This document shows positions 2,640-35,933 of a stretch of 38,389 nucleotides of DNA, piece after piece (the stretch's first letter is position 1; each line of letters opens with the position of its first letter). A program made the position numbers and the translations under genes. The stretch comes from a virus. The stretch covers positions 1 through 38,389 of IMG/VR virus record IMGVR_UViG_3300021961_008384; one strand, written 5' to 3'. Under the pieces are notes generated by a model, which worked only from the letters and a program-made list of their open reading frames with translations, made no database searches and was not told where the DNA came from.

Positions 2640-3830
2640 ATGTCTACAGGTACAATTAAAATTTGTTGCGATTTCTTTGACAAAAGAAGTTATGAGGAGC
2701 CATGGCAACGCTTCGTGATGTTCAACGGTCCTGAAGATGTTTATACTCTTCATCCAAAATTGCAAAAAACTACACTGGCAGAATGCGTGCCAGGCGATAA
2801 TGTTTTTTTTATGCTGTATCTTAGTCCCAGAGAATCTCATATGTTTTTTATGTCAAAGGACGAGTCTTTCTTTCAACGATTACGAGACCTAGATGCAAAA
2901 ATATTATTGAATCACGAAGGATTCAATTTATTCACCTATGGAGATAATATTTTTAATCACCCATTTGCTCTTGATGTGCGTGAACATCTATATTGGAAAA
3001 TAAAGAATTTTTTAGAATCCAAAGGCATACCAGAACGCAGACTATATTTTATTCACAGTGCTCAAGGGTACTTAGACGAAATTAAAAAAATGCAGACAAC
3101 CAAAATACAGTGGTTCGATGCTCCGTATCACGTAAAGTCCAAACATCTACAATGCAATCTATTTTTACCGTGGATGAACACTGTGAAGGTCCAGGCGGAG
3201 AATCCCGGATTTGATTACAAATATTCTGCTCTATTTGGAGGAAGACCCACACAATTTAGATATGATATATTGAAATCTCTCTACCATAAAGGCTTATTAT
3301 CTTACGGGAAAAACTCTATGAAACAATATGCAGGAGGTGATGCTGAGTTTGATTCACAACTACCTATCGTCTATGATGGCACCATAGACAAATGGTGGGA
3401 CAAAGACTACAACGAAACCAATGTGTTTAAAGACATATTTCTATGGGTGGTTGGAGAAACATTTGTACCCAATGGCTATCCCAACTTCTCTGAAAAAACT
3501 GCTAGAGCAATACTGTACGAAAGACCTTTTGTGATATTTGGGCACCCAGGCACTCTTAAATACCTGCACGAATTGGGTTTTAAAACATTCAGTGACTTCT
3601 GGGATGAGTCTTATGATTCAGAACCCGATCAAAACAAAAGAATATCTATGATTGTTGACATTGTGTCTAACATTTGCAAACATCCAAATTTAAATCAACT
3701 GTACAAAGATATGCAATCAGTTATTCAGCACAACAAACAGAAAGCCACAGAAACAGATTATGTGCAAGAAGTTTATGAATTTTTAAATGATAGTCTTACT
3801 TGTAGACCACATTATTGGAATGGTCAATAA
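2640..3830 (+). CDS. Glycosyltransferase-like protein (paralogue 1 of 5)
   Basis: A 396-aa protein starting at ATG 2640. The C-terminal third carries the signature of a family repeated five times in this window: FSEKTARAI, then RPFVIFGHPG, LKYLHELGFKTFSDFWDESYD, and a helical end with KRISMIVDI. The layout (variable N-terminal half, then an EK motif, a Rossmann-like strand ending in FG, and a conserved GFKTF helix) resembles the C-terminal nucleotide-sugar binding half of GT-B enzymes such as GT10 fucosyltransferases or exostosins. The family is common as hypothetical proteins in marine T4-like phages as I recall. The sugar donor and acceptor are unknown. The 3' end overlaps the convergent radical SAM gene by 35 nt. 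Confidence 0.8.
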   Translation: MSTGTIKICCDFFDKRSYEEPWQRFVMFNGPEDVYTLHPKLQKTTLAECVPGDNVFFMLYLSPRESHMFFMSKDESFFQRLRDLDAKILLNHEGFNLFTYGDNIFNHPFALDVREHLYWKIKNFLESKGIPERRLYFIHSAQGYLDEIKKMQTTKIQWFDAPYHVKSKHLQCNLFLPWMNTVKVQAENPGFDYKYSALFGGRPTQFRYDILKSLYHKGLLSYGKNSMKQYAGGDAEFDSQLPIVYDGTIDKWWDKDYNETNVFKDIFLWVVGETFVPNGYPNFSEKTARAILYERPFVIFGHPGTLKYLHELGFKTFSDFWDESYDSEPDQNKRISMIVDIVSNICKHPNLNQLYKDMQSVIQHNKQKATETDYVQEVYEFLNDSLTCRPHYWNGQ

Positions 3831-4644
3831 TAGACTCTTTGTCTGTTTCAACAGGACACTGTCTACATATTGAATGAGGTTTACCAAAGTTTTTAATAAA
3901 TTTTTCAAGTTCTTCATTATCACAATTTAGATCTAACCCAGTGTTTGTGTAAGGTTCCCACAGTTCTATATTTGGGTTATTAAATTTTTTTAGTATGTGT
4001 GGGGTGAGCCCAGCAGTACCACACTTATAGAGTTTGCCTTCAAATAATAATGGACACTTTTTTTGTACACACAATTGATTAAATGCATCTGCAGGATTAT
4101 TATCGTGCGGTTTCATATCACTGTATGTGCCTTTAAAGGTTTGATAGAAACGTTCTGGTCTGTTGATTTGAAATTTAAACTCGTTATTGGTACTCCATCT
4201 ATTGATATGAAATTCTGTAACCGGTTTCCACTCAAATCTATTCATAATATATTTGATCATTCTGTTAATACGATCATCTTCAACGTGTACACTTATTTTA
4301 AGAACACTGTTTCCTAATTCATATAGAGTATCTATTATTTCTAAATTTTTCTCTAATAGCAATCCGTTGGTTACAAATCTTATTTGAGCAGTGGGTAATA
4401 TTTGCCTTGCTCCTATAATCCACTCGTTGATGTGAGGATGTATCAACGGTTCACCTCCCATAAACCCAATTGCTTCAATGTTAAGACGTTGATTCCATTG
4501 TTCTAGCCATTCTTTAGTCTGTGACCATTGTCCGTAGTCTCCTTGATGCTTTAAATCGCTGAAAGTGGTACAGCCTTTACAAGAAAGGTTGCAACTTCTT
4601 AGCACCATTACTTCTAAGAATGGTAAATTAAGTTTAGTGTTCAT
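3796..4644 (-). CDS. Radical SAM protein with C-terminal cysteine cluster
   Basis: A 282-aa protein. The radical SAM cluster motif CxxxCxxC is C18-C22-C25 (RSCNLSCKGC), followed by the SAM-binding GGEP at 63-66 (FMGGEPLIHP). The C-terminal half has further cysteines, including CPLLFEGKLYKCG and C260-x2-C263, in a layout like SPASM or twitch auxiliary Fe-S domains, so it may bind a second cluster. Such enzymes modify peptides or small molecules by radical chemistry. It lies between two glycosyltransferase-like genes: convergent overlap with 2640-3830, divergent with 4666-5685. No small precursor-peptide gene is evident next to it. The start at ATG 4644 gives the family's usual short N terminus. 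Confidence 0.88.
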   Translation of the reverse strand: MNTKLNLPFLEVMVLRSCNLSCKGCTTFSDLKHQGDYGQWSQTKEWLEQWNQRLNIEAIGFMGGEPLIHPHINEWIIGARQILPTAQIRFVTNGLLLEKNLEIIDTLYELGNSVLKISVHVEDDRINRMIKYIMNRFEWKPVTEFHINRWSTNNEFKFQINRPERFYQTFKGTYSDMKPHDNNPADAFNQLCVQKKCPLLFEGKLYKCGTAGLTPHILKKFNNPNIELWEPYTNTGLDLNCDNEELEKFIKNFGKPHSICRQCPVETDKESIIDHSNNVVYK

Positions 4645-4665: not shown

Positions 4666-5685
4666 ATGTTAAACTTTCAATATTATTCTAGCGTTCCAAA
4701 CTACATCAAACAAGACTTTGATAGATATGGTTATCATTTTGAAGATTGTAAAGATCCATTCACTACAAATGTTATTTTTTATGAGCACGATATTTCTTTT
4801 GTTATAGAAAATATTGAACAACTTAAACATAACCAACATATAATAATTATTGATCATCATTTTGTACAGCACAACCGATTATTAAAATTAGACTCATTAG
4901 TTGAAAAAAATACTGTTATTTTAATCGGTACTCAATATCTTAAACCATTGTACAAAAACTTAACCACACTACAGATAGGCTCTTCGGAACTATGGTGCAA
5001 ACACGATGTAATGAAATATGTTATTGATTGTTGGATAACAAAAAGAAAATGGAGTGCAAGTAATCCATGGTTATTACTGTCTGCTCACGGTACTATGCCT
5101 TTCCATAAATCAAGAAATCATTTCATAGATAATTTAAAAATCAAATTAGAAAATAAAATTTTTACTAATCCTACCACAGGACCAGACCTATGGGATAGAA
5201 AAAGAGAGTTTGATGACTGGATAGAAGAAACATTTGGTAATAGAAATATGTTAGGAGGGTTTGGCTCAGGACTTCCTCGATTTGATTTTTATGATGCAAC
5301 ATCAGCTGAACTTGTATTAGAAACAATATATGAAACTGAAACAGTGCATCTGAGTGAAAAAACTTGGAGACCAATTGCTTGTAACGTGCCTGCTCTATTT
5401 TTACTTAACAGTGCTAATTTAAAATATCTCAATGAGCTTGGATATAAAACAAGTTCAACTTTTTATAAAGAGTTAGAACAATGCAAAAGTTATACTGATG
5501 TATTATTACTGGTAACAGCACAAATAGACAAACAAGATTTTACAATACTACAACAAGATGCTGAGTATAACTACAATCACTTTTGGAGATATCACAGTGT
5601 ATGGAGTGACTATGTACCAAATCTTAAAAAAGTATTTGGCCATTCTCCTATAGAAGATATTTCAATAAGACTTAATAAAGTATAA
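4666..5685 (+). CDS. Glycosyltransferase-like protein (paralogue 2 of 5)
   Basis: A 339-aa protein with the family signature in a diverged form: TVHLSEKTWRPIACNVPALF, then LKYLNELGYKTSSTFYKEL. The usual DESYD segment is replaced, and FG of the strand motif is LN here, so it may have changed specificity. The N-terminal half has no recognisable motif. It starts at ATG 4666; a TATAAT at 4654-4659 ends 6 nt before the ATG and no Shine-Dalgarno site is visible. The 3' end overlaps the convergent methyltransferase gene by 14 nt. Function is inferred from the shared C-terminal motif only. Confidence 0.78.
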   Translation: MLNFQYYSSVPNYIKQDFDRYGYHFEDCKDPFTTNVIFYEHDISFVIENIEQLKHNQHIIIIDHHFVQHNRLLKLDSLVEKNTVILIGTQYLKPLYKNLTTLQIGSSELWCKHDVMKYVIDCWITKRKWSASNPWLLLSAHGTMPFHKSRNHFIDNLKIKLENKIFTNPTTGPDLWDRKREFDDWIEETFGNRNMLGGFGSGLPRFDFYDATSAELVLETIYETETVHLSEKTWRPIACNVPALFLLNSANLKYLNELGYKTSSTFYKELEQCKSYTDVLLLVTAQIDKQDFTILQQDAEYNYNHFWRYHSVWSDYVPNLKKVFGHSPIEDISIRLNKV

Positions 5686-6442
5686 ATTTATTTTCTTGCC
5701 ATTTAAACACAAACTTCTTCTTGGCCTGGACAACATTAATTCTATAAGGTTTCAATGGAAAATGTCTGTATGTGCTTTCACAACGACAAATTATGTCGTT
5801 ATATAAAATTTCATCGTCTAAAAATATTGTTGCATCTTTATAGTGTTCTAGATCTAATTCAAATTCAATGTCTTCAAAACAATTTGCTTTAGATAAGTCA
5901 TACACATATTTGTTTTCAGTTTCTTTAATAGTCTTAAATTGGTTACAGTTTTCATAGAAGCCAGCTGGTAAATGTTCACTATCAATCAACACAGTTGGGT
6001 CTTGATCAATAATACCATCAAACACAGATGCTTTAATTCTATATCGATTAGCAGTACATTCAGCATCATTATAATAATTTTTAATGTGTTGAAAAAAAGA
6101 TTTTATTATAAAATTATTTTTAAACTGGCAACCAGTTATCTCCATTAATATAGATTCAACATCTTTTATTTTTACATTTAAAAAGTTATCTTCAATAATC
6201 TCAACGTTCTTACCTTTATACTTTTCTTTTAAAAATTGTGCTTTTGCTTTTCTTATTTCTATACAATATACTTTTTTTGCACCAAACTCTAAAGCATAGT
6301 CTGTAAGTATTCCTGTACCTGCACCAATATCTAAACAGATTTTGTTTTTAACAATTGGTTGAATTGTTTTTTTAAAAAACATATTACGACCAACATCATT
6401 GAGCATTGGAATATGATCTGATATTACAGGATTATAAAACAT
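5672..6442 (-). CDS. Class I SAM methyltransferase, PRMT-like
   Basis: A 256-aa protein. Motif I is CLDIGAGTGILTDYALEFGA (36-55), with acidic E62 at the end of strand 2 (VYCIEI). The segment before motif I, HIPMLNDVGRNMFFKKTI (10-27), matches the layout of protein arginine methyltransferases (ML.D..R...Y..AI). After strand 4 there is LMEITGC, giving one glutamate of the PRMT double-E loop; the second is not evident. So either it is a diverged PRMT-like enzyme or it uses another nucleophile. It is the second gene of a leftward pair; its ATG overlaps the stop of the amidinotransferase gene (TAATG), which ties a methyltransferase to arginine or guanidine chemistry. Confidence 0.85.
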   Translation of the reverse strand: MFYNPVISDHIPMLNDVGRNMFFKKTIQPIVKNKICLDIGAGTGILTDYALEFGAKKVYCIEIRKAKAQFLKEKYKGKNVEIIEDNFLNVKIKDVESILMEITGCQFKNNFIIKSFFQHIKNYYNDAECTANRYRIKASVFDGIIDQDPTVLIDSEHLPAGFYENCNQFKTIKETENKYVYDLSKANCFEDIEFELDLEHYKDATIFLDDEILYNDIICRCESTYRHFPLKPYRINVVQAKKKFVFKWQENKFILY

Positions 6443-7506
6443 TAAAAGTAATCTTCCATTGTGCCTTCTCTATAAAGGTCTTGAGTGAGACAGTGTACTC
6501 CACCGTCCCAAAACCAACGATGTCTTTGATTACATATAATTGGTTCTATCTTGTGTTTTTTAAGAAAATTAAAAACTTTTTCGTTGTAATTATTAACTAA
6601 TACACACTCTTCGTTTATAGAGAGCATATTAACTTCAAAAACTGTTTCTTCGCAATAGCCAACCCAATCACCTAGCCAACTTTCAACATAGCCGATCAGT
6701 CTATCGTTGTCCTCTTCACCTTCGATCCACCACTTGCCTCCTACTTTTGCTTTCATTTTACGAAACGGAGATAGCTGATCCCAGTACTTGTCTTCCAAAT
6801 AACAGATATCCCATCCAGGAAATTTCTCATTATAGTTTTGAAGATCATGCAGAGTTACAATGACTCCTGGTTTTAATATGCACCAAGTAGCATCGCCGTG
6901 TCCTCCCATCTCTTCGGTGGCTTGTATGTTAACTCTAAATCCTTCTGACTCCCATTTGTTTTTGTGATATTCAATTAATGGCGAGTCTTTCCACCCAGGC
7001 TGATTGGTACCCCAAAAGATATCTTTGCCTAATAGATGTATGAAAGAAGTACTCAGTAACCTCTGTTGATCTGGCGTTTGTGGTCCATTAATATGCATCT
7101 CATAGGTGTAACTAGAGTCTGAATAATCCATATATTCTTTTGGAAAATGTAACTTGTCTTTGCCTATTTGGCTGAACAGTGTTTGATATTCTGGAAGATT
7201 ATTCGCCACATAAACATTTTCTCCAATAACTGCCATATCATCTCTGGTTTGTTGAGGCGGTTTTCTTGCATATTGAGATAGATCTACAGGAGTGTTCTCC
7301 ATATTAGGTCTGTGTACTTCTACGCCAAAACTTTTAAGAGTACGACTTAGATTTTCTAAATCTTCTTTGGTCTCTTCAATCACTCGTGCTAGTGGTGATA
7401 GAATTTTATTATCTTTTAAATGTTTAAATTTTTCAATTGGAAATACATCTCCCACAAGACAGGTTTTTAGTGGATGAAATGTACAATAGCCTTTTACTGG
7501 TATCAT
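6442..7506 (-). CDS. Amidinotransferase-like protein (arginine deiminase / GATM superfamily), 354 aa
   Basis: The family transfers an amidino group from arginine, or hydrolyses guanidines, through a cysteine intermediate. The catalytic pieces are visible: EEMGGHGDATWCILKPG with H203 and D205, and GGVHCLTQDL with C339 near the C terminus. The N terminus MIPVKGYCTFHPLKTCLVGD matches the usual first strand, which supports ATG 7506; a longer frame extends upstream but would overlap the divergent gene at 7550. Its sequence is only distantly similar to the second amidinotransferase at 12160, so it may act on a different acceptor. It heads a leftward operon with the PRMT-like methyltransferase. A -10-like box ends 7 nt before the ATG. 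Confidence 0.88.
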   Translation of the reverse strand: MIPVKGYCTFHPLKTCLVGDVFPIEKFKHLKDNKILSPLARVIEETKEDLENLSRTLKSFGVEVHRPNMENTPVDLSQYARKPPQQTRDDMAVIGENVYVANNLPEYQTLFSQIGKDKLHFPKEYMDYSDSSYTYEMHINGPQTPDQQRLLSTSFIHLLGKDIFWGTNQPGWKDSPLIEYHKNKWESEGFRVNIQATEEMGGHGDATWCILKPGVIVTLHDLQNYNEKFPGWDICYLEDKYWDQLSPFRKMKAKVGGKWWIEGEEDNDRLIGYVESWLGDWVGYCEETVFEVNMLSINEECVLVNNYNEKVFNFLKKHKIEPIICNQRHRWFWDGGVHCLTQDLYREGTMEDYF

Positions 7507-7549: not shown

Positions 7550-8521
7550 ATGCTTATAGATGCTGACGCCCATATTGCCACACCAGATTGTTTCGAAACA
7601 CTCAACAATAATCAATTCATCGACAGGTATCTAACACATTATCAAAAAACTGGTAATTTAAAAACAGCAGAACAACAAAAAAAAGAAGCACAAGAGCTAG
7701 GAGTTACTCATCAAGTCTTGAATTTTTTTGGTGCTAATACAGGATTAAACTATCAACACTCTCCTGACGATGCAGTAAAAATTGCACAAGTTTATAACAA
7801 TTCTATGTCTACTGTTGTAAACAACAGTGATGGGTTCTTTTCAGCCACCGGTTGGATACCTATGCAAAATACATCAGCATCATTAACAGAAATAGATAGA
7901 ATTAAAAAGCTAAATCTTTTTGCAGTGTTTGTAGATGATACTATTGCTTGGGGCAGAGCCGAGTGGGCAAAAACAATCTTTAAAAAATGTGCAGAACTAA
8001 ATCTTCCTGTGTACATTCATTTTACAAAAGTTGAGCACAATGTTAATAACAGTTTAATGGATATTGATGATGACGATATTATTAAAAAGTTACAGCTCAA
8101 TACGTGGAACTTACAATGTAACCTAGATGGCTCAATTGATTTTTTAAAAATGCTGTATAGTGTGATAGAGAGTGAGTGGTTGGACGAGTTTAAAACAATT
8201 AAATTTGTAATTGCTGAACGAGGAATTGATTGGATCAAACCGTTTGTTCAATTTTGTGATAAACATACAGGCAAAGATACGCTTTCCTTATTACAAAAAC
8301 ATTTTTGGTTTACTACCGAACCAGAACACAAAAATTTTATACAAGACGCAGAATATATAGGATGGAATAAAGTTTTATTTGCAAGTGATCACGGACACAA
8401 TGCAGATTGTGGAGGTGCTAATTTTGGTTATGATTTAGATACTATTAAAAAATTTAATCTACAAACAGATATAGTTGAATTAATCACTTATAAAAATTTT
8501 CAGCAGTTAATTCGTTCGTAA
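7550..8521 (+). CDS. Amidohydrolase family 2 (TIM-barrel metal hydrolase)
   Basis: A 323-aa protein, typical in length for the ACMSD-like amidohydrolase-2 family. The first strand reads MLIDADAHIATPDCF, with H8 and neighbouring Asp residues in place of the usual HxH or DxH metal site. VYIHFTK (H157) fits the strand-5 histidine and LFASDHGHN (D280) fits the C-terminal catalytic aspartate (SDxPH in relatives). These proteins hydrolyse or decarboxylate small ring or amide compounds. It is divergent from the amidinotransferase and convergent with the SGNH-type gene, which it overlaps by 22 nt. The substrate is unknown; context suggests a nitrogen-containing sugar or guanidine compound, which is inference. 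Confidence 0.82.
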   Translation: MLIDADAHIATPDCFETLNNNQFIDRYLTHYQKTGNLKTAEQQKKEAQELGVTHQVLNFFGANTGLNYQHSPDDAVKIAQVYNNSMSTVVNNSDGFFSATGWIPMQNTSASLTEIDRIKKLNLFAVFVDDTIAWGRAEWAKTIFKKCAELNLPVYIHFTKVEHNVNNSLMDIDDDDIIKKLQLNTWNLQCNLDGSIDFLKMLYSVIESEWLDEFKTIKFVIAERGIDWIKPFVQFCDKHTGKDTLSLLQKHFWFTTEPEHKNFIQDAEYIGWNKVLFASDHGHNADCGGANFGYDLDTIKKFNLQTDIVELITYKNFQQLIRS

Positions 8522-9108
8522 ACTTTATCAGCCCACTGCTGATTCTGTTCCACAGTCATATGATTGATTGTGCCTATACCCCACCCGTCTTTCTCACCTG
8601 CGGTTTTGGAAAAAGCGAACAAGCTCTCATCTATAAATGTCCCAGACTGTAATCTTATTCCAGCGTTCTTACCTGCAGTCTCAAATGGTTTGAATGACCA
8701 CATCTGTAAGAGTTTTTTATCCACTTTGGACAGCACGTGTTGATCAAAATACTTTATAGCATATTCGTAAGACAACTCGTCTTTATCATAGGAGTGAAGA
8801 TACTTCCAATAGTCATCTAGAGCTCGATACACATTGGTATCCACACCCTCCAGTGGTTGTGTGTTAGCACTCAGTATCAAGTTAGGATGATATAGTCTGT
8901 AAGGTTCAGTCCAACAGAACACACAGATATCAGGCAAACGATGTTGCTCTTTCAAACGATTGAACTGCATTATTGTTGTCCATATGCTCCTGCCAGGCTC
9001 TCCCCAATGCACGATACGAGCATTCAGTTTCTTAGACAGCAATACACACCAACTCTCAGATTCTCGACCTGCACAAAAACTATCACCAAAATATCCTATT
9101 GTTGTCAT
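8500..9108 (-). CDS. SGNH/GDSL-type hydrolase-like protein
   Basis: A 202-aa protein with SGNH-like blocks: GDSFCAG at 8-14 (nucleophile S10), GEPGRSIW as the block II region, and NHMTVEQN near the C terminus with H183 as the candidate catalytic base. The block III GxND motif is not clear (CWTEPYR occupies that place). The family includes esterases and acyl or acetyl hydrolases, many acting on carbohydrate acetyl groups. No signal peptide is present, so it acts in the cytoplasm or is packaged. Its 3' end overlaps the amidohydrolase gene. I am fairly sure of the fold and unsure of activity. Confidence 0.72.
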   Translation of the reverse strand: MTTIGYFGDSFCAGRESESWCVLLSKKLNARIVHWGEPGRSIWTTIMQFNRLKEQHRLPDICVFCWTEPYRLYHPNLILSANTQPLEGVDTNVYRALDDYWKYLHSYDKDELSYEYAIKYFDQHVLSKVDKKLLQMWSFKPFETAGKNAGIRLQSGTFIDESLFAFSKTAGEKDGWGIGTINHMTVEQNQQWADKVYERINC

Positions 9109-9133: not shown

Positions 9134-9658
9134 ATGAAGTATTCATACTCTGACTGGAATGGTAAAACAGGTACTATACCTGTGTTCTGGAACAAAGAAC
9201 ATTACCTGAATTCAGGCTGGTACAGACATCCTGATCGTACACACGGATTTTCTACAGAGGATACCAACTATAAAATATATGGTGATAATTTAGGAGTATA
9301 TATTCCAAAGACTCTTAACTCTACATTTGAACAAGCATTTGATTTTTTTAATTTAGATGAAATAGTATTCTCTTTATCTATGTACGAACCTGGAATGATA
9401 CTGCCTTGGCACAGAGACAACTACCCAACCTACAGCAAAAATAAAGGCATAGTAGAACCAGAAGGCATAGTGAGAGTTATGGTGTTTTTAGAAGATTCTG
9501 CTCCTGGCCACCAATTGTGGATTGATAATAAAATGTGTACAGGCCCTGCAGGATCTTGGTTTGCTTGGCAAGGCAGAACTAAACATATGGCGGCAAACCT
9601 TGGAGAAGTTAATCGTTACGTAATGCAGATTACTGGCATTCTCCCTGAGCAATCTTAA
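9134..9658 (+). CDS. 2OG-Fe(II) oxygenase-like / aspartyl hydroxylase-like cupin
   Basis: A 174-aa protein with the iron triad of 2-oxoglutarate dioxygenases: H93-R-D95 in LPWHRDNYP and the distal H151 in RTKHMAANLGEVNR, with R161 as a candidate 2OG anchor. The middle (VRVMVFLEDSAPGHQLWID) is the usual beta-strand stretch. Length and layout are close to small aspartyl/asparaginyl-hydroxylase-like or prolyl-hydroxylase-like phage enzymes. The substrate is unknown. It is divergent from the SGNH-type gene and overlaps the convergent glycosyltransferase-like gene by 29 nt. Confidence 0.82.
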   Translation: MKYSYSDWNGKTGTIPVFWNKEHYLNSGWYRHPDRTHGFSTEDTNYKIYGDNLGVYIPKTLNSTFEQAFDFFNLDEIVFSLSMYEPGMILPWHRDNYPTYSKNKGIVEPEGIVRVMVFLEDSAPGHQLWIDNKMCTGPAGSWFAWQGRTKHMAANLGEVNRYVMQITGILPEQS

Positions 9659-10574
9659 ATTCACTATTCCAGTTGTTGTTTTCAAAGTGCAGTTTGTTGT
9701 GTATTAAAATATCTTTGAGCTTGTCATACACATCAAAAGGATTTTGTTGAGCAAGTTTGTGCATAGAATCCAACACCATAAAAAATCTTTTAGACATATC
9801 TGGTTCGTCATCATACGATTCATCTATCACAGGCGCAAAACTTTTAAATCCTAGTTTACGAAATGCTTTTAAATGTCCAGGAGATCCAAATATTACAAAA
9901 GGTCTGCCAGCCACCATGGGTTTGGCCTGTTTCTCTGAAAACATAGCAAACTTTGGACTTATAACTGTTTCAACCATTGAACTATAATAGGTTTGATTAT
10001 ATATCTCAGGATCAATAAGATCTGAACACCTTATTTGACTGCCTGAAATAAATGTTTCTGCTGTGTGTTGCTGTGGACGCATTACATACTTGCTCCAACT
10101 ACCTTTGTTCACATCTTTTCCATAATAAGTTAACAAAGTTGAAGACATTACTGGATGTTGTTGAATAAGAGAGTAAATTATATCTTTAGTATCATTCCAT
10201 TCGCCTAGTAATAAATCAAATCGCAGATTAGTTTTTTTTATTTCATAATTAACACAAAGATCTAACAGTTTTTTACATTCAGAATTACGTTTATATAATT
10301 GCCATCCTTCAAAAAACATTTCGTTAATATAATGTAAATTAGATATATCTTTGTGAATAGGTACACAGTTAGCAAAGAAAGTACAGCGAGAAGAATCAAA
10401 TTCTTCTACAAAATCTACAGTTCCAAAAAAGTCATTATTCAGTTCGTAGTTCAATCCAGGCTGACCCAATTTAATGTAGATGTGATCCGCAGTTGCAAGA
10501 GCATTGTTAATTGACTCTCTTAACCTATTAACCTCCGCAGTTCCTCCTGCCCAACTAGTAATTAATTTTTTCAT
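9630..10574 (-). CDS. Glycosyltransferase-like protein (paralogue 3 of 5)
   Basis: A 314-aa protein. The C-terminal signature is FSEKQAKPM, then GRPFVIFGSPGHLKAFRKLG, FKSFAPVIDESYDDEPD and a helix with KRFFMVLDSM. This is the same family as the genes at 2640, 4666, 10571 and 19185; the N-terminal half differs, as expected if acceptor binding varies. It is the last gene of a leftward operon (12138 down to 9630); its ATG overlaps the stop of the previous paralogue (ATGA at 10571-10574). The exact enzymatic activity is inferred only. Confidence 0.8.
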   Translation of the reverse strand: MKKLITSWAGGTAEVNRLRESINNALATADHIYIKLGQPGLNYELNNDFFGTVDFVEEFDSSRCTFFANCVPIHKDISNLHYINEMFFEGWQLYKRNSECKKLLDLCVNYEIKKTNLRFDLLLGEWNDTKDIIYSLIQQHPVMSSTLLTYYGKDVNKGSWSKYVMRPQQHTAETFISGSQIRCSDLIDPEIYNQTYYSSMVETVISPKFAMFSEKQAKPMVAGRPFVIFGSPGHLKAFRKLGFKSFAPVIDESYDDEPDMSKRFFMVLDSMHKLAQQNPFDVYDKLKDILIHNKLHFENNNWNSEFKIAQGECQ

Positions 10575-11539
10575 AATAACACTGCTTCAATCTTGTTTTG
10601 ATTATGACTTAAATATATTTTTTTATTATGCTCTAATAACGGTTCTAAGTCTTTTTGTAAAAAATTTAAATCGTCCAAAGACATAGTTGCAATTTTATCA
10701 ATTTCTTTGTTCATTCTATCTAATCTTTCTTCACCGGTATACTGATCATAAGATTCGTCAATTATATTTGAAAATGTTTTATAACCTATTTTCTGTAGGT
10801 TAGATAGATAATTTTTTGGGCCAAATACTATAAACGGTGTTTTTGTAAAAAGAGCTCTACCTGTTTTTTCAGTTGGATAAAATGTAATTCCATTATGCCA
10901 AGTTTCACATACTACATCTAAAAAAAAGTCATTGTATTTGTCTATGATGTAAAAAGCCTTGTCCCAATTAATATATCCATTGTCAGCGGCAACTGGGTCT
11001 TTGTTTAAAGGTAAAACAGGATAAAAATTTTTAATATTATTTTTTAGTTCTATGTTTTCAGTTTGTTTTAAATAGTAGTTGATAGGAAACTCTTTTTGTT
11101 GAAATGTTTGTAAAGTTTTATCTCTATGATACAAATACAAGTAACTTGATAAACACAATCTAAAAAATCTCGCAGATCCTACAAAACAACCAAAATGTTT
11201 TTTTATTTGTTTATTGTATTCGTACGGTCCTTTATGAGTTTGTCCTGCTAAAAAAACATCACAGCCAAGAAATCTAAAAATGTTAGGCCAATAGTTTGGT
11301 TGTAATAAATTTCCTGTTTCAATTTTTATTCTATTTTTATCTATTCTGTTATTATTACAAAAATTTTCTAAAATATCAATTAGTGTTCTATTATTATGAT
11401 AAATTTCTTTTAGATCTGGCCCCTCACCAATAACCAATGTAAGATTATCGTTGTTTATTTTAAAAGATTCTAAACATTCATAAAGTTCTTCGGTGTTAAG
11501 AATTTCTTTTTCTAAAACAAATATTTCAAAAGTAATCAT
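10571..11539 (-). CDS. Glycosyltransferase-like protein (paralogue 4 of 5)
   Basis: About 322 aa from ATG 11539, which overlaps the stop of the upstream gene in a TAATG arrangement; a longer in-frame start at 11572 would overlap it further and is less likely. The C-terminal signature reads FYPTEKTGRALF, TKTPFIVFGPKNYLSNLQKI, GYKTFSNIIDESYDQYTGEE. The N-terminal half contains a second alpha/beta-like region (LTLVIGEGPDLKEIYHNNR). It is strongly AT-rich like its neighbours. Two paralogues side by side suggest sequential sugar additions or duplication followed by divergence. Confidence 0.8.
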   Translation of the reverse strand: MITFEIFVLEKEILNTEELYECLESFKINNDNLTLVIGEGPDLKEIYHNNRTLIDILENFCNNNRIDKNRIKIETGNLLQPNYWPNIFRFLGCDVFLAGQTHKGPYEYNKQIKKHFGCFVGSARFFRLCLSSYLYLYHRDKTLQTFQQKEFPINYYLKQTENIELKNNIKNFYPVLPLNKDPVAADNGYINWDKAFYIIDKYNDFFLDVVCETWHNGITFYPTEKTGRALFTKTPFIVFGPKNYLSNLQKIGYKTFSNIIDESYDQYTGEERLDRMNKEIDKIATMSLDDLNFLQKDLEPLLEHNKKIYLSHNQNKIEAVLL

Positions 11540-12138
11540 TATAAAAAATAATACTCCATTAGGGTTTCGCACTTGATACCTTTAGTGCGTGATATAAAAG
11601 ACTGTATGGGTTCACAGTCTTTCCAATGAAACTGATTATGATACATTGGCTGATAAGAAAATGTTGCATTAAAAGATTGATCGTTGTTTAACAAAAAAGT
11701 TACTTCACTATCTATATGTTTAAAAGGTTCTAAAAATTTATCTTTAGAATCAATTAATTCAAATTCATAATTGTTGTATTCATTATTATTCTTTTCAATT
11801 ATAAGATCTAGAGGAATAACTGGTAAATTTAAATATTTGGCCACCATAATTCTGCTTCCGCCTGGATGAATATTAATATTTTTGTTTGCATATAATCCCA
11901 CTAATGGTTGGTTAAATTGATGAGTATTTTTTAAATTTTTAAACAGCATTCTTACATTATGAAATGTAATATCATAAGGATCTTTTTCTATAAAAATTCT
12001 AGCTAATCTTTCTAATTCGTTTTCCCAATCAAAATCAATTACCGTAGTGGGAAACTGTTTAAACCGTTTAATACAGTGATTAGACTCTACTATTTGGTAA
12101 ATCCATTTCACTAACTCTGATTCGTTTAGGAGTTTCAT
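11539..12138 (-). CDS. ParB/sulfiredoxin-like domain protein, about 199 aa
   Basis: First gene of the leftward operon with two glycosyltransferase-like genes. The segment NINIHPGGSRIMVAKYLNLP followed by VIPLDLII resembles the ParB-like nuclease/sulfiredoxin signature (GxHR.xAA..L....IPV), with HPGGSR in place of GxHR. That fold binds nucleotides and occurs in proteins unrelated to plasmid partition. The rest has no family I recognise. I chose ATG 12138 (MKLLNESELVKW); an ATG at 12156 or a GTG at 12159 would add a few residues and come very close to the divergent amidinotransferase gene at 12160. Confidence 0.65.
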   Translation of the reverse strand: MKLLNESELVKWIYQIVESNHCIKRFKQFPTTVIDFDWENELERLARIFIEKDPYDITFHNVRMLFKNLKNTHQFNQPLVGLYANKNINIHPGGSRIMVAKYLNLPVIPLDLIIEKNNNEYNNYEFELIDSKDKFLEPFKHIDSEVTFLLNNDQSFNATFSYQPMYHNQFHWKDCEPIQSFISRTKGIKCETLMEYYFL

Positions 12139-12159
12139 ACTGCTATTTAAATACATCAC

Positions 12160-13176
12160 ATGAAGGTTCTCACTAAAAACGAATACTCGCCATTAAAATC
12201 TGTAATTGTAGGTAGACCTGAATATGCCAGCTGGCCTGTGGGCGACAACTTCTTTGATACTATGCTTAATTTAAGCACATTCAAAGGTCGTCCTGACAGA
12301 GGTACACTGCCAGAAAAAGTCATACAAGAAGCTCGAGAAGATGCTTATCTTTTTATTGATTTGTTAGAAGACGAAGGAGTCACTGTCTATAGGCCAGAAA
12401 TTGTAGATTGGAGAAGAACAATAGCAGGATTAAATCACGTTACCACAGGAATGAGTTCTTGGAGTGCTAGAGATATTTTATTATCTGTGGGAGATATGAT
12501 TATTGAATGTCCTACCCCTTTTGTCAGTAGACAACACGAAGCATCTGCCTATCACGAAATACGAAAACAGGCCATAGCAGATGGATGTCGATGGATTGCG
12601 GCTCCACAACCTCCAATGGAGAAAGCAGAATACAATGTTAAAATTGGCGGTCGAGTAGAACTCACAGAACGATATCCTATCTTTGATGCCGCCAATGTGT
12701 TAAAAATGGACGATAAATTATTGTATCTTTATTCGTCAACAGGCAATATGTCAGGTGCAAAGTGGCTACAAAAAATTGTTGGTTCTGAATTTGAAGTTGT
12801 TGTTTGGGATAATGTATATCCACACGCTCACATCGATTCAACTATTATGCCTATTAGTAAAGATACTGTGATGTTAAATGCTGACCGAGTGTCTGGAGAA
12901 AATCTACCTAAGTTTATTAGACCAATGAAAAAGATTTGGGTACACGATTGTCGGCCTGGCTCTTTTTACAAATTTCCCTACGCATCTAAATGGATAGGAA
13001 TGAATGTGTTGAGTATTAATCCTGAAACGGTTGTGGTTGATGCCATACAAACAGAATTAATCAAACAACTGCAAAATGAAAAGTATAGAGTGATAGAAGT
13101 CACGAACAGACACAATAGAACATTAGGAGGCGGATTTCATTGTATGACCTGTGATCTGGAGAGAGAATGCGGATAG
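12160..13176 (+). CDS. Glycine/inosamine-type amidinotransferase (GATM-like)
   Basis: A 338-aa protein of full family length. The match to GATM and inosamine-phosphate amidinotransferases is strong: IVGRP near the start, PIFDAANV with D176, HAHIDSTIMPI with H224 and D226, KWIGMNVLSI, and the catalytic cysteine C328 in LGGGFHCMTCDLER, which parallels the animal and bacterial enzymes closely. The reaction moves an amidino group from arginine to an amine, for example on glycine, lysine or an aminocyclitol. It opens a three-gene rightward operon: the next gene (nucleotide-sugar dehydrogenase) overlaps by 10 nt. An amino-sugar or related amine is therefore a reasonable acceptor; this is inference. 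Confidence 0.93.
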   Translation: MKVLTKNEYSPLKSVIVGRPEYASWPVGDNFFDTMLNLSTFKGRPDRGTLPEKVIQEAREDAYLFIDLLEDEGVTVYRPEIVDWRRTIAGLNHVTTGMSSWSARDILLSVGDMIIECPTPFVSRQHEASAYHEIRKQAIADGCRWIAAPQPPMEKAEYNVKIGGRVELTERYPIFDAANVLKMDDKLLYLYSSTGNMSGAKWLQKIVGSEFEVVVWDNVYPHAHIDSTIMPISKDTVMLNADRVSGENLPKFIRPMKKIWVHDCRPGSFYKFPYASKWIGMNVLSINPETVVVDAIQTELIKQLQNEKYRVIEVTNRHNRTLGGGFHCMTCDLERECG

Positions 13177-14381
13177 GATTTATAGGATTGGGCAAATTGG
13201 GACTGCCCTGTGCTGAGGAAATGTCACGACAGCATTCCGTAATAGGTTATGACGTTGAACACAGAGTATCTGCACACATAGAGATAACACAAGACATTAA
13301 AAATATTTTTAAAGACACCGAAATAATTTTTATTGCAGTGCCTACACCACACGATCCTCAGTACGATGGATCGCATCCAACCACACAATTACCCAACAAA
13401 GATTTTGATTATTCAACAGTTGTTAATGTTTTAAAACAATGCCAACGATATGCAAACAAGAATCAGATAGTCAGTCTGATCAGCACAGTGTTACCAGGTA
13501 CCACCCGTAGAGAGTTCGCTCAATACACTCGTAATTTTCAATTTGTTTACAATCCTTATTTGATTGCAATGGGTTCTGAAGCCTATGATATGGTCCACCC
13601 TGATATGGTTATTATTGGTACAGAATATGGAGAAGAATCTAGAGCGGCAAAAGTTGTATCACAGTTTTATAAAAAACTTATTCTTAATAATGCACAACAG
13701 ATGACGGGCACGTGGGAGGAAGCAGAAGGATTTAAAATATTCTACAACACAATGATATCTGCTAGACTAGCACTGGTTAATATGATTCAAGATGTGTCAC
13801 AGAGAATTGGTCATATGAATGTGGATAAGATAACTGATGCCTTTAAAAAAGCATCCGTAAGAATAACGGGCAAAGGTTATTACAAAGCAGGAATGGGCGA
13901 TGGAGGTGCTTGTCACCCTAGAGACAATATTGCACTCAGCTGGTTAGCTGAACATTTGGATTTAGGATATGATTTATTTCATGCAATCAGTCATGCTCGA
14001 GAACAGCAGACTCGTAATATGGCCAAGTTTGTAGCAGACATCTGTCGTAAAGAAAATAAACCGTGTGTGATTAACGGCAAAGCCTACAAGCCTTCAGTTC
14101 CATATACTATAGGATCTCCCTCAGTACTTTTAGAACATTATCTAAAAGAACAAGGCGTAGAAGTAATGTTTGCAGACAATGAGACCAAAGATAATGTAAA
14201 TGAAATTATTGATTGTGTATGTGTGATGGCTCACGATCCTCAAACCACATACAATCACACAGGCAAAAAATACGAACAAAAATTATATTTCCAACCAGTT
14301 AAAGGCAATACAATTATAGATCCATGGCGTTGTTTTACGAACAAAAATTATAATGTAATATACTATGGTTCCGGACAATAG
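13167..14381 (+). CDS. UDP-glucose/GDP-mannose dehydrogenase family protein
   Basis: A 404-aa NAD-dependent nucleotide-sugar 6-dehydrogenase. The N-terminal Rossmann motif is MRIGFIGLGKLGLP (G7-x-G9-x2-G12); FIAVPTP and STVLPGTT are typical strand ends; the catalytic cysteine C249 lies in GDGGACHPRDNIAL, the family GGxCxPxD motif. The family oxidises UDP-glucose, UDP-GlcNAc or GDP-mannose to the uronic acid. The C-terminal domain is present, so the gene is complete. It overlaps the amidinotransferase gene by 10 nt and the sulfotransferase-like gene by 17 nt, so the three proteins are made together. The product may feed the glycosyltransferase-like enzymes nearby. Confidence 0.93.
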   Translation: MRIGFIGLGKLGLPCAEEMSRQHSVIGYDVEHRVSAHIEITQDIKNIFKDTEIIFIAVPTPHDPQYDGSHPTTQLPNKDFDYSTVVNVLKQCQRYANKNQIVSLISTVLPGTTRREFAQYTRNFQFVYNPYLIAMGSEAYDMVHPDMVIIGTEYGEESRAAKVVSQFYKKLILNNAQQMTGTWEEAEGFKIFYNTMISARLALVNMIQDVSQRIGHMNVDKITDAFKKASVRITGKGYYKAGMGDGGACHPRDNIALSWLAEHLDLGYDLFHAISHAREQQTRNMAKFVADICRKENKPCVINGKAYKPSVPYTIGSPSVLLEHYLKEQGVEVMFADNETKDNVNEIIDCVCVMAHDPQTTYNHTGKKYEQKLYFQPVKGNTIIDPWRCFTNKNYNVIYYGSGQ

Positions 14382-15943: not shown

Positions 15944-16597
15944 TTATTTTTTCACAATAGATATGGAAAAAAATGCATCATTAGTTTTAAGTTGAAAGTT
16001 TTTCTTATGAGCAATAACCACTTCTATATTACAATAATTAAATTTTTCCGTATTAGGTGCTATCTCCCAACTGTATAAATTACCAAATCCGTTTTTTTCT
16101 GCATTAAAATTATGATTAGCAGGAATTTGTGCTGTAAAAACTTTTAAATCTTTATTCCATACAATTCCGTGCTCTTGTACTTGTAAAATGTAATCTTTAT
16201 GTAGTCGAGCTCTCCATGGAAAAGCAATTAATGTAAAGTCCCACTCATACTCAGCATTATGTTTTTCTGCAAAATAAGTGCCGTGTAGCATTTCTGGATG
16301 AAATATTTTCCTACATATAACATTCTGCTCACCGCGATACTCCACAGGCATTGCGATTGTGTAAGAGTTTTGTAATAAAGATCTTAAACCTAAACACGCT
16401 CTAGCTGTATTATTATACCTGTCGTGATCTGTTGTATAGTTTTCTAAATTATTTTTAAGATTTCTAAACCACGCAGGCAAATAATTAATAGTTTTAACAG
16501 GTGGATTACATTCTAAATCTTTTACATATTCATCCAGCCTTGCAGATTCCCAAGTAAGTAGTTCGTTCACATAGAATTCTTTAGGTTGGTATAACAT
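15944..16597 (-). CDS. Conserved marine phage hypothetical protein, 217 aa
   Basis: A leftward gene whose ATG (16597) overlaps the stop of the DUF1178 gene (TAATG). The sequence has LPAWFRNLKNNLE, then ARACLGLRSLLQNSYTIAMP, a layout I recall from phage proteins annotated as DUF6065-like (PxWFK...KxCxG...GYIIP), followed by a beta-rich second half (FPWRARLHKDYILQV). The assignment to that family is uncertain. No membrane segment. Function unknown. Confidence 0.7.
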   Translation of the reverse strand: MLYQPKEFYVNELLTWESARLDEYVKDLECNPPVKTINYLPAWFRNLKNNLENYTTDHDRYNNTARACLGLRSLLQNSYTIAMPVEYRGEQNVICRKIFHPEMLHGTYFAEKHNAEYEWDFTLIAFPWRARLHKDYILQVQEHGIVWNKDLKVFTAQIPANHNFNAEKNGFGNLYSWEIAPNTEKFNYCNIEVVIAHKKNFQLKTNDAFFSISIVKK

Positions 16598-32103: not shown

Positions 32104-32895
32104 ATGTTTATATCTGACAATAATTTACAAGAACTTAAGAAAAAAGGTTATACTGTTATTAAAAATCTGTTGACTATTGAGAACGTCAATGACTGGAAAA
32201 CATTAATAAAAGAGATAGAAAAAGAAGTTATTCTAGAAACAGCAGGAATTAAAGATTCAAATCCTAATGAGTTTATTGAACCTAACGTGCTTCGAGAAGG
32301 TAACAAATTGTTCATGATTAAATGTAATGGAAAAATACAAACCAGGCCAGAAGGTATAGAACTAATAAAACATTTTGAAGATGAATTTCGAAAAATAAAT
32401 GATGATGTACGATTTATAAAAGATAGAATCATTACTCAAAAACAAGACTATCCTGCTTTCTTACCACATCAAGATAATCCTTCTAGTGTACACGAAGAAA
32501 TTACAAACGAATTCTACAGCGCCTATGTTAGTTTAACTGATACCACTGAACAGGGTGGGTGTCTTTGGGTAGAAGATATAGAACCAAAAAGAACAACTAG
32601 TTTAGAATACTGTCGAGATGGATGTGCATCAGGAAAGACTTGCAAATGTTTTCCTATGAAGATTACAGCTACAGACATTAAGACTTACAGAGGACACAAT
32701 ATGGTTCCAATTGAACTAAAAACTGGAGACTGTATTATGTTTGATGGTTGGTTATTACACGGTACTGCTACTAATACGAGTGATGTAGTAAGACAAACTT
32801 TAATATTTGGTTATGGTGCTATGAGGCAAGAAGATAAAGACACAACAAATGTTTACAAAAAGTACATGATCAAAAGAAAAACAGCACAAAAATAA
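32104..32895 (+). CDS. PhyH-type 2OG-Fe(II) dioxygenase (copy 1)
   Basis: A 263-aa protein with the facial triad: H122 and D124 in LPHQDNPSS, distal H219 in DGWLLHGTA, and R230 as 2OG anchor. The architecture matches phytanoyl-CoA dioxygenase-like enzymes. An unusual cysteine cluster lies between the two metal-ligand sites: YCRDGCASGKTCKC (C170, C174, C180, C182), which could bind zinc or a cluster. The second copy at 35127 shares long stretches of DNA and the same cysteine pattern (YCDDGCASGKSCAC). The substrate is unknown. It starts the second accessory module. Confidence 0.88.
   Translation: MFISDNNLQELKKKGYTVIKNLLTIENVNDWKTLIKEIEKEVILETAGIKDSNPNEFIEPNVLREGNKLFMIKCNGKIQTRPEGIELIKHFEDEFRKINDDVRFIKDRIITQKQDYPAFLPHQDNPSSVHEEITNEFYSAYVSLTDTTEQGGCLWVEDIEPKRTTSLEYCRDGCASGKTCKCFPMKITATDIKTYRGHNMVPIELKTGDCIMFDGWLLHGTATNTSDVVRQTLIFGYGAMRQEDKDTTNVYKKYMIKRKTAQK
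32499..32594 (+). repeat. 96-bp perfect direct repeat, copy 1
   Basis: Identical over 96 nt to 35516-35611 in the second PhyH gene, including silent positions. A further shared stretch of about 39 nt lies near 32690-32728 and its counterpart near 35708-35746. This is more identity than the protein constraint requires. Confidence 0.9.
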
Positions 32896-32896
32896 T

Positions 32897-32910
32897 CCAA
32901 TAAGTATTGG
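32897..32910. promoter_or_regulatory. Dyad CCAATA-AG-TATTGG before the tandem methyltransferase
   Basis: A perfect 6+6 inverted repeat with a 2-nt centre, ending 1 nt before ATG 32912. It overlaps where the ribosome would bind, so it could be an operator or a translation-blocking structure. Confidence 0.35.
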
Positions 32911-32911
32911 T

Positions 32912-34240
32912 ATGGATCCAACTATCGTCGCAGAATGGCTTAAACACGACAGTAGGCGTGTGAGACCTGCTGATTATAATGAGATATATCCACTAACAGT
33001 AGATCTAATTATTAAGAAGACACAATGTCTTCTACCTAGAAAAGTCATACAGAATCAACGTGTTCTTGATTTAGGAGCAGGAATACCTTATTTTGAAATT
33101 TGGTGTAATGAGAATAACGCTCACTACACTGGTGTGGAAATACAAAGAGACATAGCACATACAGCAATGACGTTGATAGATAGTAAAAATAACTTCTTTC
33201 ATGATTCAATAGAAAATTTTATTAATCATTGTAACTTTGATAATTTTGATGTAATTGTTCTATCCTCAACGTTACATCTTACTGAAAACTATCTTTCAGT
33301 ATTAGAAAAACTTTTATCCTCAAGAAAAACTATTATAATTGAAGAAACTATATTAGAATGGGGGAATGGGCCACAACTTACTGTTTGGCGAGATAAAAAT
33401 CAATTTACAAGTGATCCTGAAAAAAGTATCAAAGTTCAAAAATGGCATTCAACTATGGACTTCTTAGAATATTTTATGATCAAATATGGATATACTGTTG
33501 ATAAAAAAGCACACAAAGTTGCTGAGATGGTACTTCCTGAATGGTTTAAAAAATGGAAGTATTTTTTAATAGGAAGATACGATAACACGTCTGCAAAGCC
33601 AATTACAATGCAGGAGACAGAATGGAAGTTTAATGACGAAGTGGCACAGATTTTTGAAGATCATGCCATAAAACACATTCCTGATTATGAACATATAATC
33701 AAACAGTTACCCTCTATTCTACACAGATACAATATTACTACGGATAAAAAAATAATAGATTTTGGATGTGCAACAGGGAGTACATTAAGAACTCTGCGTT
33801 ATAATGGTTATAAAAATATATCAGGAGTTGACTCTAGTCAAACAATGTTAGATAAATGTCCTGACTCTATTGCTAAACTTATTTGTGACGACAAATTACC
33901 TGAAGAAAATTATGATGTAATAATCTCAAACTGGACTTTACATTTCAATGAAAATAAATGGAATCTACTTACAGATTTCAAAAAAAAAATAAATCAGTCA
34001 GGACTGATTATATTATCTGAAAAAACCAAAGAGGTCGACAGAAACATTTATCATAAATGGAAAGCATCTAATGGGTTGACTCAGCAAGAAATTGAAAACA
34101 AAGAAAAAAGTTTACAGGGTAAAATGTTTCTGCACACTAAAAAAGAATATGAAGAACAATTTAAAATACACAATTTTGAATATCAAACAATCAACGATAA
34201 GTTTGGATTTGTAACTTGGGTGCTTCATGTTAGAAAATAA
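32912..34240 (+). CDS. Fusion of two class I SAM methyltransferase domains
   Basis: A 442-aa protein. Domain 1 has motif I VLDLGAGIPYFEIWC (51-65) and acidic E77 (YTGVEI), and ends with the EETILEWGNG segment near 145-153. Domain 2 has motif I IIDFGCATGSTLRTL (281-295), D307 in ISGVDSSQ, and a post-motif with VIISNWTLHF. The two domains are distinct, so this is a fusion, not an internal repeat. Such proteins usually methylate small molecules, lipids or sugars. It ends 14 nt inside the next gene (start 34227), which suggests coupling. Confidence 0.85.
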   Translation: MDPTIVAEWLKHDSRRVRPADYNEIYPLTVDLIIKKTQCLLPRKVIQNQRVLDLGAGIPYFEIWCNENNAHYTGVEIQRDIAHTAMTLIDSKNNFFHDSIENFINHCNFDNFDVIVLSSTLHLTENYLSVLEKLLSSRKTIIIEETILEWGNGPQLTVWRDKNQFTSDPEKSIKVQKWHSTMDFLEYFMIKYGYTVDKKAHKVAEMVLPEWFKKWKYFLIGRYDNTSAKPITMQETEWKFNDEVAQIFEDHAIKHIPDYEHIIKQLPSILHRYNITTDKKIIDFGCATGSTLRTLRYNGYKNISGVDSSQTMLDKCPDSIAKLICDDKLPEENYDVIISNWTLHFNENKWNLLTDFKKKINQSGLIILSEKTKEVDRNIYHKWKASNGLTQQEIENKEKSLQGKMFLHTKKEYEEQFKIHNFEYQTINDKFGFVTWVLHVRK

Positions 34241-35117
34241 ATTAAAAATAGGTGTACAACCAATGTGGGGAGTGGGCTGTCTAGAATGGTTACGGTCTCT
34301 ATCTAAGAGCGGTATAGTGCCAGGTACAGTGTTTACAGATAACCCAGATCACAATCACTACCTTACGGAAGAAGAATGGGATGATTTTTTTTCAGATACT
34401 CGAGATATAATTATTGCAACTAATAATGTTAATTTTAGAAATATTAAATTTCACGGGTTTCTTCTTCAGTACAAACCAAAATATGTAGAAATATACAACA
34501 ACGGAGATCCAGCACATTTAGGAATAGGCTATCATGACAAAGACAAGTTTCTTTTTGATGTACTGTTTCCTAAAATAAAGTGCAAAGTCTACGTTAAGAG
34601 TATTAATACTAAAGCAGGCAATACAGTTAATCTTGATGGATATATTTTGGATAAAGTGCAAGGAATAAATGTAAAAAACAACAATGCCGCAGGATCTACA
34701 TCAGATCAAACATTAGAAGAATCTATCGTATGGGCTAAAAAGAATTTTAATTTACCTGTGTTAGCAAGTGGAGGTATTACAAATAAGAACGATATAGATA
34801 ACGCATTTAGATACGGAGCCGATGCTGTTTTAATAGGCACGTTGTTTGCTGTTGCAAAAGAATCTAATCTGTCCAAAGAAAGCAAACAGATGCTCATATC
34901 AAAAAATAGTAGTGATTTGAAACGAGAACAAATCAACAATAGTAATTTACTGTCTATAGGTACTAGATTAGAAAACGATGATAAGAATTTAAGTAAAAAT
35001 CTTATGCATACTGTTAAAGAAGGCAAAAACGGAATATTGTATGCTGGCAAGGCAATAGATAATATACACGCAGAGAATGATATTAAAACTATTGTATCAG
35101 AACTATTGCAACAATAA
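34227..35117 (+). CDS. Nitronate monooxygenase-like FMN TIM-barrel protein
   Basis: A 296-aa protein overlapping the methyltransferase gene by 14 nt. The best part is the C-terminal half: PVLASGGITNKNDIDNAFRY, then GADAVLIGTLFAVAKES, the FMN-phosphate-binding motif and GTxF of nitronate monooxygenases (2-nitropropane dioxygenases). The earlier strands are more diverged, though YILDKVQGINVKNNNAAGST shows a candidate substrate loop; the N terminus MLENKLKIGVQPMWG is family-like. It could also belong to an IMPDH-related group. A flavoenzyme between two PhyH enzymes suggests oxidative chemistry on one substrate. Confidence 0.72.
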   Translation: MLENKLKIGVQPMWGVGCLEWLRSLSKSGIVPGTVFTDNPDHNHYLTEEEWDDFFSDTRDIIIATNNVNFRNIKFHGFLLQYKPKYVEIYNNGDPAHLGIGYHDKDKFLFDVLFPKIKCKVYVKSINTKAGNTVNLDGYILDKVQGINVKNNNAAGSTSDQTLEESIVWAKKNFNLPVLASGGITNKNDIDNAFRYGADAVLIGTLFAVAKESNLSKESKQMLISKNSSDLKREQINNSNLLSIGTRLENDDKNLSKNLMHTVKEGKNGILYAGKAIDNIHAENDIKTIVSELLQQ

Positions 35118-35120
35118 ATA
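35113..35120 (+). promoter_or_regulatory. Candidate late promoter box (AATAAATA)
   Basis: One mismatch to TATAAATA, 6 nt before ATG 35127, inside the end of the preceding gene. Confidence 0.4.
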
Positions 35121-35126
35121 TTTCAA

Positions 35127-35933
35127 ATGGAACAAAAAAATTTACTAGAATTACAAAACAAAGGATACACAGTCATTAAAAATATGTTCGATCACGAACA
35201 GATAAAAAAATGGAAAAGCACTGTATCAGCAATAGAAAAAGAAGTTATATTAGAATGGGCAGGTGTAAAAAATAAAAAGATTGATGATGCTTATTCAAGC
35301 ATAGTTTATAAAGATGCCAACGGTCCTTATATGCTACGTTGTACTGGAAAATTACAAACCAGACCAGAAGGTGTAGAACTAATAAAACATTTTGAAGACG
35401 AATTTCGAAAAATAAATGACGATGTACGATTTATAAAAGATAGAGTTATAAATCAAAAAAAAGATTACCAAGGACTGTTACCACATCAAGATAATCCTTC
35501 TAGCTTTCATCATACAATTACAAACGAATTCTACAGCGCCTATGTTAGTTTAACTGATACCACTGAACAGGGTGGGTGTCTTTGGGTAGAAGATATAGAA
35601 CCAAAAAGAACTGAAAGTTTAAAATATTGCGACGACGGGTGTGCATCAGGAAAAAGTTGTGCGTGTCTACAAATGAAAATAACTCCTACTGATATTAAGA
35701 TTTATAAAGGACACAATATGGTTCCAATTGAACTAAAAACTGGAGATTGTTTAATGTTTGATGGGTGGTTATTGCACGGTACTGCCGCTAATATGACAGA
35801 TAATATCAGACAAACACTAATTTTTGGTTATGGGGTTTTACCAAAACATCTGCAAAACAATAAAAATATTCTTAAAGATTGTCGTATACCTCAATCAAAC
35901 GATGCTATAACCTTGGGTGATACACTAAAATAA
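35127..35933 (+). CDS. PhyH-type 2OG-Fe(II) dioxygenase (copy 2)
   Basis: A 268-aa paralogue of the gene at 32104. H120 and D122 are in LPHQDNPSS and the distal histidine is in DGWLLHGTA; the cysteine cluster is also kept. Near-identical segments (96 nt perfect) alternate with strongly diverged ones: residues 45-75 and the C terminus (LPKHLQNNKNILKDC onward) differ completely. That mosaic pattern fits duplication with later gene conversion. The pair surrounds the methyltransferase and flavoenzyme genes. Confidence 0.88.
   Translation: MEQKNLLELQNKGYTVIKNMFDHEQIKKWKSTVSAIEKEVILEWAGVKNKKIDDAYSSIVYKDANGPYMLRCTGKLQTRPEGVELIKHFEDEFRKINDDVRFIKDRVINQKKDYQGLLPHQDNPSSFHHTITNEFYSAYVSLTDTTEQGGCLWVEDIEPKRTESLKYCDDGCASGKSCACLQMKITPTDIKIYKGHNMVPIELKTGDCLMFDGWLLHGTAANMTDNIRQTLIFGYGVLPKHLQNNKNILKDCRIPQSNDAITLGDTLK
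35516..35611 (+). repeat. 96-bp perfect direct repeat, copy 2
   Basis: The match of 32499-32594. Recombination between the two copies would delete the methyltransferase and flavoenzyme genes and leave one hybrid PhyH gene. Confidence 0.9.

Follow-up and report, generated by a model that had tools for sequence, protein, structure and literature searches.

The window, that is, the whole stretch of DNA analyzed here, is a viral contig of 38,389 bases from IMG/VR that carries ribonucleotide reductase and tail genes and is of the large tailed phage type. We focus on two adjacent genes of this contig, denoted AT2 and MT, and on the genes that surround them (Table 1).

Table 1. Genes at and around the AT2-MT locus (labels of the glycosyltransferase, SGNH hydrolase and dioxygenase are based on motifs)
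Feature	Coordinates	Strand	Description
Radical SAM protein	3796..4644	minus	Homologues near AT2 in loci L015 and L002
Glycosyltransferase-like gene	4666..5685	plus	Motif reading, no Pfam match
MT	5672..6442	minus	PRMT-superfamily class I methyltransferase, 256 aa
AT2	6442..7506	minus	Amidinotransferase-fold protein, 354 aa, ATG at 7506
Amidohydrolase	7550..8521	plus	PF04909; homologue near AT2 in locus L002
SGNH-like hydrolase	8500..9108	minus	GDSF motif, no Pfam match
2OG-dioxygenase-like gene	9134..9658	plus	HxD...H motif, no Pfam match; member of the conserved cassette
AT1	12160..13176	plus	Amidinotransferase, full canonical residue set
Nucleotide-sugar-dehydrogenase-like (UGD) gene	13167..14381	plus	Overlaps AT1; the two are also neighbors in distant phages

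AT2 and MT lie on the same strand and are coupled by TAATG, as the earlier note on this DNA pointed out: the junction reads ...CTTTTAATGTTT, with one A common to the TAA stop and the ATG start. Phages often use gene overlaps for genes that are expressed together. TAATG alone is weak evidence of a functional pair here because one-base overlaps join other gene pairs in the same window, at 16597 and 18012. The GC content of MT is 26.6%, 10 points below that of AT2 (36.6%), with AT1 and UGD at 38.8% and 37.4%, respectively; given that other genes in the window, at 10571-12159, are also low in GC, composition alone does not prove that MT was acquired separately. The glycosyltransferase-like gene is convergent with MT and overlaps its 3' end by 14 bases; close homologs of this gene are absent near AT2 in the nearest relatives. 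Homologs of the SGNH-like hydrolase are found near AT2 in loci L017, L018, L020 and L037. Elsewhere in the window (32104-35933), a gene for a protein that contains two methyltransferase domains and a nitronate-monooxygenase-like gene lie between two PhyH dioxygenases that resemble each other. The radical SAM protein bears a weak resemblance to viperin (PADLOC 1.6e-12), with the NCBIfam match well short of its cut-off. A function in defence was considered and rejected, the PADLOC matches being weak and generic: that of MT is to the mad2 core, and that of the radical SAM protein is viperin-like.

AT2 has no match in Pfam or NCBIfam, but a profile built from 33 sequences of its family matches AGAT (best 2e-19), SxtG, HsvA and StrB1 in the PDB. 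The predicted structure of AT2 (pLDDT 83, pTM 0.87) aligns along the whole chain with StrB1 (Z 27.2, rmsd 3.8, 296 residues) and AGAT (Z 26.8, rmsd 3.4, 287 residues) in VIA comparisons, whereas the scores against arginine deiminases (at most about 23) and peptidylarginine deiminases (PADs; about 18) are lower. The assignment of AT2 to the amidinotransferases in the earlier note is thus borne out at the level of the fold, which is that of AGAT/StrB (Z about 27), and by the profile. AT2 shares with AGAT, StrB1, SxtG and HsvA the catalytic Cys and His, both guanidine-binding Asp residues and the C-terminal GGxHCxTxD motif, although the identity over the aligned structures is only 18-24%. Specifically, D89, H203, D205 and C339 of AT2 are the counterparts of D170, H303, D305 and C407 of AGAT.

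The catalytic triad of AGAT consists of Asp254, His303 and Cys407 (PMC3684758), and it is in the first of these that AT2 departs from the amidinotransferases: the position of D254 is occupied by S152 (codon 7051-7053), so that the superfamily fold, the Cys/His and the two guanidine-binding Asp are present and the third triad acid is absent. Most of the phage family shares this change. Among 90 AT2-family sequences, this position holds Ser in 35, Asn in 29, Asp in 8, Thr in 5, Gln in 5, Pro in 4, Glu in 1 and other residues in 3, whereas H203 is retained in 90/90, D205 and C339 in 89/90 each, and D89 in 87/90. A profile scan identified confirmed relatives of AT2 in at least 569 viral contigs. 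AT2 thus belongs to an extensive and little-described group of phage proteins with the AGAT/StrB amidinotransferase fold.

The non-Asp residue at the D254 position in 82 of the 90 sequences raises the alternative that AT2 is a deiminase-like hydrolase that converts arginine to citrulline and ammonia, or else an inactive relative. The four remaining residues correspond to the Asp-His-Asp-Cys set of PAD4 (Asp350, His471, Asp473 and Cys645; PMC3525017), with which AT2 also shares the superfamily fold (Z about 18), and deiminases are the next best structural matches after the amidinotransferases. However, AT2 is more similar to the amidinotransferases (Z 26-27 vs at most about 23) and, compared with PAD4, is a single short domain that lacks the PAD N-terminal domains; the near-invariance of the Cys, His and Asp residues speaks against inactivity. 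On balance, we consider a hydrolytic or inactive AT2 unlikely. We found no phage amidinotransferase of known function in the literature. A parallel comes from an exchangeable module of the Campylobacter phages CP220 and CPt10, in which, as here, a phage amidinotransferase is a neighbor of radical SAM genes (PMC2853527); unlike the arrangement in the window, that module has a distant amidinotransferase (26% identity) without an adjoining methyltransferase.

MT carries, ahead of motif I (LDIGAGTG, residues 37-44), the PRMT-type segment HIPMLNDVGRN (residues 10-20; H10..MLND..R19) that the earlier note had recognized, and aligns with PRMT9, PRMT7 and CARM1 from residue 8-11 onward; E62 is present as well. 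The profile search proposed in that note, performed with MT and its relatives against the PDB, returned PRMTs alone among the best 60 of 293 matches, with PRMT7 at the top (8e-51) and no GAMT chain among those 60, although among the relatives in the profile are some closer to PRMTs than MT is. When MT is the sole query, PRMTs come ahead of KsgA-type proteins only narrowly (2e-7 vs 7e-7), but PRMTs lead in the phmmer, profile, Foldseek and VIA comparisons alike, and the confidently modeled N-terminal half of MT aligns with CARM1, PRMT7 and PRMT6 over about 100 residues (Z 12-14). Generic libraries give a different picture: the top Pfam match is RrnaAD (4.7e-8, residues 32-111), the NCBIfam match to KsgA (4.9e-8) is far under the cut-off, and the RrnaAD, TlyA and KsgA matches all have low scores and are confined to residues 30-111, the cofactor-binding Rossmann core shared by these enzymes. 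The NLPY-type motif of KsgA/Erm is absent, the corresponding position reading MEITG (residues 100-104). Thus, the profile, the structure of the N-terminal half and the segment before motif I show that MT belongs to the PRMT superfamily and not to the rRNA methylases, a placement that, according to the earlier note, would have told against its reading.

Although MT resembles PRMTs such as PRMT7, PRMT9, CARM1 and PRMT6 in the segment before motif I, in motif I and in the first glutamate of the double-E loop, it fails a defining feature of these enzymes. The loop, MEITGCQFKNN, contains the first glutamate, E101 (6140-6142), whereas nine residues downstream, at the position of PRMT1 E153, MT has N110 (6113-6115), in agreement with the earlier observation of a single double-E glutamate. 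In PRMTs, both glutamates hold the guanidinium of the substrate (PMC4860837; PMC12153873), and the E153Q change renders PRMT1 catalytically inactive (PMC11681865). The C-terminal part of MT, where the THW loop and the beta-barrel domain of a PRMT would lie, is short and poorly modeled, with pLDDT below 50 for residues 103-256; R226-H227-F228 is a possible counterpart of THW, which would then be reduced to RHF at best.

A scan of the viral contigs with the MT sequence alone detected no relative, and GenBank phages yielded only weak matches to the core; the real relatives were recovered through a DNA pattern for the PRMT motif and then by alignments. By eye, the second double-E position in these relatives is Gln in the phage loci L091, L125 and L128, and Glu in L100, L101, L105, L113, L114, L118, L122 and L130. 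Several T4-like phages (L100, L105, L126, L130 and L132) encode PRMT-like methyltransferases between or beside nrdA and nrdB, and the same reading finds both double-E glutamates in each of these proteins. Bacterial PRMT-like genes, as read from the sequence, occur near AdoMet-decarboxylase-like genes (L113:2146-2571 and L122:4486-4905). Our literature search on phage-encoded arginine methyltransferases found nothing relevant.

MT might be a working protein-arginine methyltransferase that acts on host or phage proteins and is unrelated to AT2. Its placement in the PRMT superfamily, the possible RHF in lieu of THW, and the retention of both glutamates in other phage PRMT-like proteins, several of them encoded beside nrdA/nrdB, are all compatible with such a role. 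The replacement by N110 of the very glutamate whose substitution inactivates PRMT1, together with the short C-terminal half that is not confidently modeled, makes this possibility unlikely in our estimate.

The earlier note further proposed that AT2 and MT form a functional pair in which transfer of an amidino group is followed by N-methylation, and this part of the proposal is not supported. A phmmer search with MT against every ORF found no MT homolog at the 89 other AT2 loci, in a collection that covers the AT2 loci of relatives and may leave out records very close to the window; the loci devoid of MT include L002-L004, L015 and L016, in which AT2 is 81-85% identical to that of the window. 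Conversely, no amidinotransferase gene was found beside about 20 viral PRMT-like genes. Among the 28 whole records that carry AT2, two have MT-like genes, in both cases away from AT2, and no methyltransferase family is among the 25 most frequent Pfams of AT2-adjacent genes. In L015, AT2 directly overlaps the radical SAM gene, and in L002 the two are separated by one other gene; in the window, MT and the convergent gene lie between them. That AT2 and MT adjoin is most likely a matter of chance in the gene arrangement.

These observations bear directly on a creatine-type pathway, in which AT2 would amidinate an amine and MT would then N-methylate the guanidino product. The overlap of the two genes on one strand is compatible with such a pathway, and so is the link of both superfamilies to arginine or guanidino groups, PRMTs for MT and AGAT/StrB for AT2, which the earlier note stated correctly. 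Against it are the occurrence of the pair in the window alone (0/89 other AT2 loci), Asn in place of the second double-E glutamate in MT, the loss of the triad Asp in AT2, the different base compositions of the two genes, and the kinship of MT with PRMTs, with no GAMT chain among the best 60 profile matches. We therefore regard creatine-type chemistry as quite improbable at this locus: the superfamily assignments of the earlier note stand by profile and fold, and the two-step chemistry built upon them is not supported. Guanidinoacetate methyltransferase has been reported to be strongly enriched in ocean viruses (PMC11360552).

The conserved context of AT2 is a different one. AT1, a second amidinotransferase, is no more than 6 kb away from AT2 in 15 loci that represent 11 distinct AT2 clusters, UGD accompanies AT2 in 14 loci, and the dioxygenase-like gene is a recurrent companion of AT2 along with these two. 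In L060, L072, L085 and L088, UGD, the dioxygenase gene and AT1 overlap in a row, and the next one or two genes belong to the AT2 family. All six key residues of AT1 (R104, D105, D176, H224, D226 and C328) are invariant in 16/16 sequences, AT1 and 15 homologs. A short DegT-like aminotransferase gene lies alongside AT2 in nine loci, and Synechococcus phage S-SCSM2R, a relative that has been cultured, has its AT2-like gene flanked by kdsA/kdsB and two annotated 2OG oxygenases. Taken together, these associations suggest sugar or glycan chemistry for the subset of AT2 linked to AT1 and UGD. Outside this subset, the neighbors are mixed, with DUF6614 the commonest and with cupin, ribonucleotide reductase and helicase genes also present, so that the role in sugar chemistry need not extend to the entire AT2 family.

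In streptidine biosynthesis, the substrate is oxidized, aminated and then amidinated by StrB1. By analogy alone, a dehydrogenase, a DegT-like aminotransferase (in the relatives L002 and L017) and two amidinotransferases are reminiscent of this route; unlike in that route, the DegT-like proteins are only about 200 aa long and are absent from the window. The DegT-like proteins coupled to AT2 (L002:5408-6004, L007:6794-7543 and L017:5417-6004; about 200-235 aa) contain the putative lysine and lack the usual C-terminal part. Other recurrent neighbors of AT2 are a DUF6614 protein (L031:2511-2969), an acyltransferase-like protein of unknown family (L019:4259-5029) and a protein with the motif WPPCPYARKAR (L071:5047-5544). 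A QueE-like gene is present in the vicinity of AT2 in 13 loci; in L005, a QueE-like gene (7573-8448) and a QueD-like gene (3848-4357), both assigned by sequence reading, are a few kb from AT2.

The explanation we favor is that AT2 serves the cassette as an amidinating enzyme and that MT is a separately acquired neighbor, a joint reading to which we assign about an even chance. Under this scenario, AT2 would load C339 with the amidino group of arginine or a comparable donor, H203 would act as the acid/base while D89 and D205 keep the guanidinium in place, and the group would then be handed over to an amine, probably, given the neighboring genes, one on a sugar or a similar small molecule. The Asp that backs the His in the usual arrangement would be dispensed with, leaving a four-residue set as described for peptidylarginine deiminase. 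Jointly with AT1 and the UGD-like, dioxygenase-like and glycosyltransferase-like genes, AT2 may produce a guanidino-bearing sugar or a related small molecule. MT, with its altered double-E loop, would have arrived independently; AdoMet binding is probably retained, and the methylated substrate would be something other than free guanidinium. Observations that run against this favored scenario include the loss of the D254 counterpart, which could make AT2 inactive or hydrolytic, and the overlap of AT2 with MT in the window.

In a more elaborate version, the widespread phage amidinotransferase branch would transfer amidino groups despite lacking the third triad acid and, in concert with AT1 and the sugar dehydrogenase, would supply a phage-specified glycan with guanidino sugars, which in this phage the PRMT-derived MT, its pocket altered from Glu to Asn, would methylate; this version appears highly improbable. 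A KsgA/Erm-type rRNA or DNA methylase identity for MT, as the RrnaAD and KsgA matches might imply, has a very low probability, with those matches confined to the shared core and the PRMT segment in place.

The part of this locus worth following is the AT2 family with its cassette. This family spans hundreds of phage contigs, most of its examined members carry the same active-site change, and some are found near an intact second amidinotransferase and a nucleotide-sugar dehydrogenase. Creatine biosynthesis should not be read into viral metagenomes from such genes. If AT2 is indeed active, the triad Asp would be dispensable for amidinotransferase chemistry, and phages would make guanidino-modified molecules.
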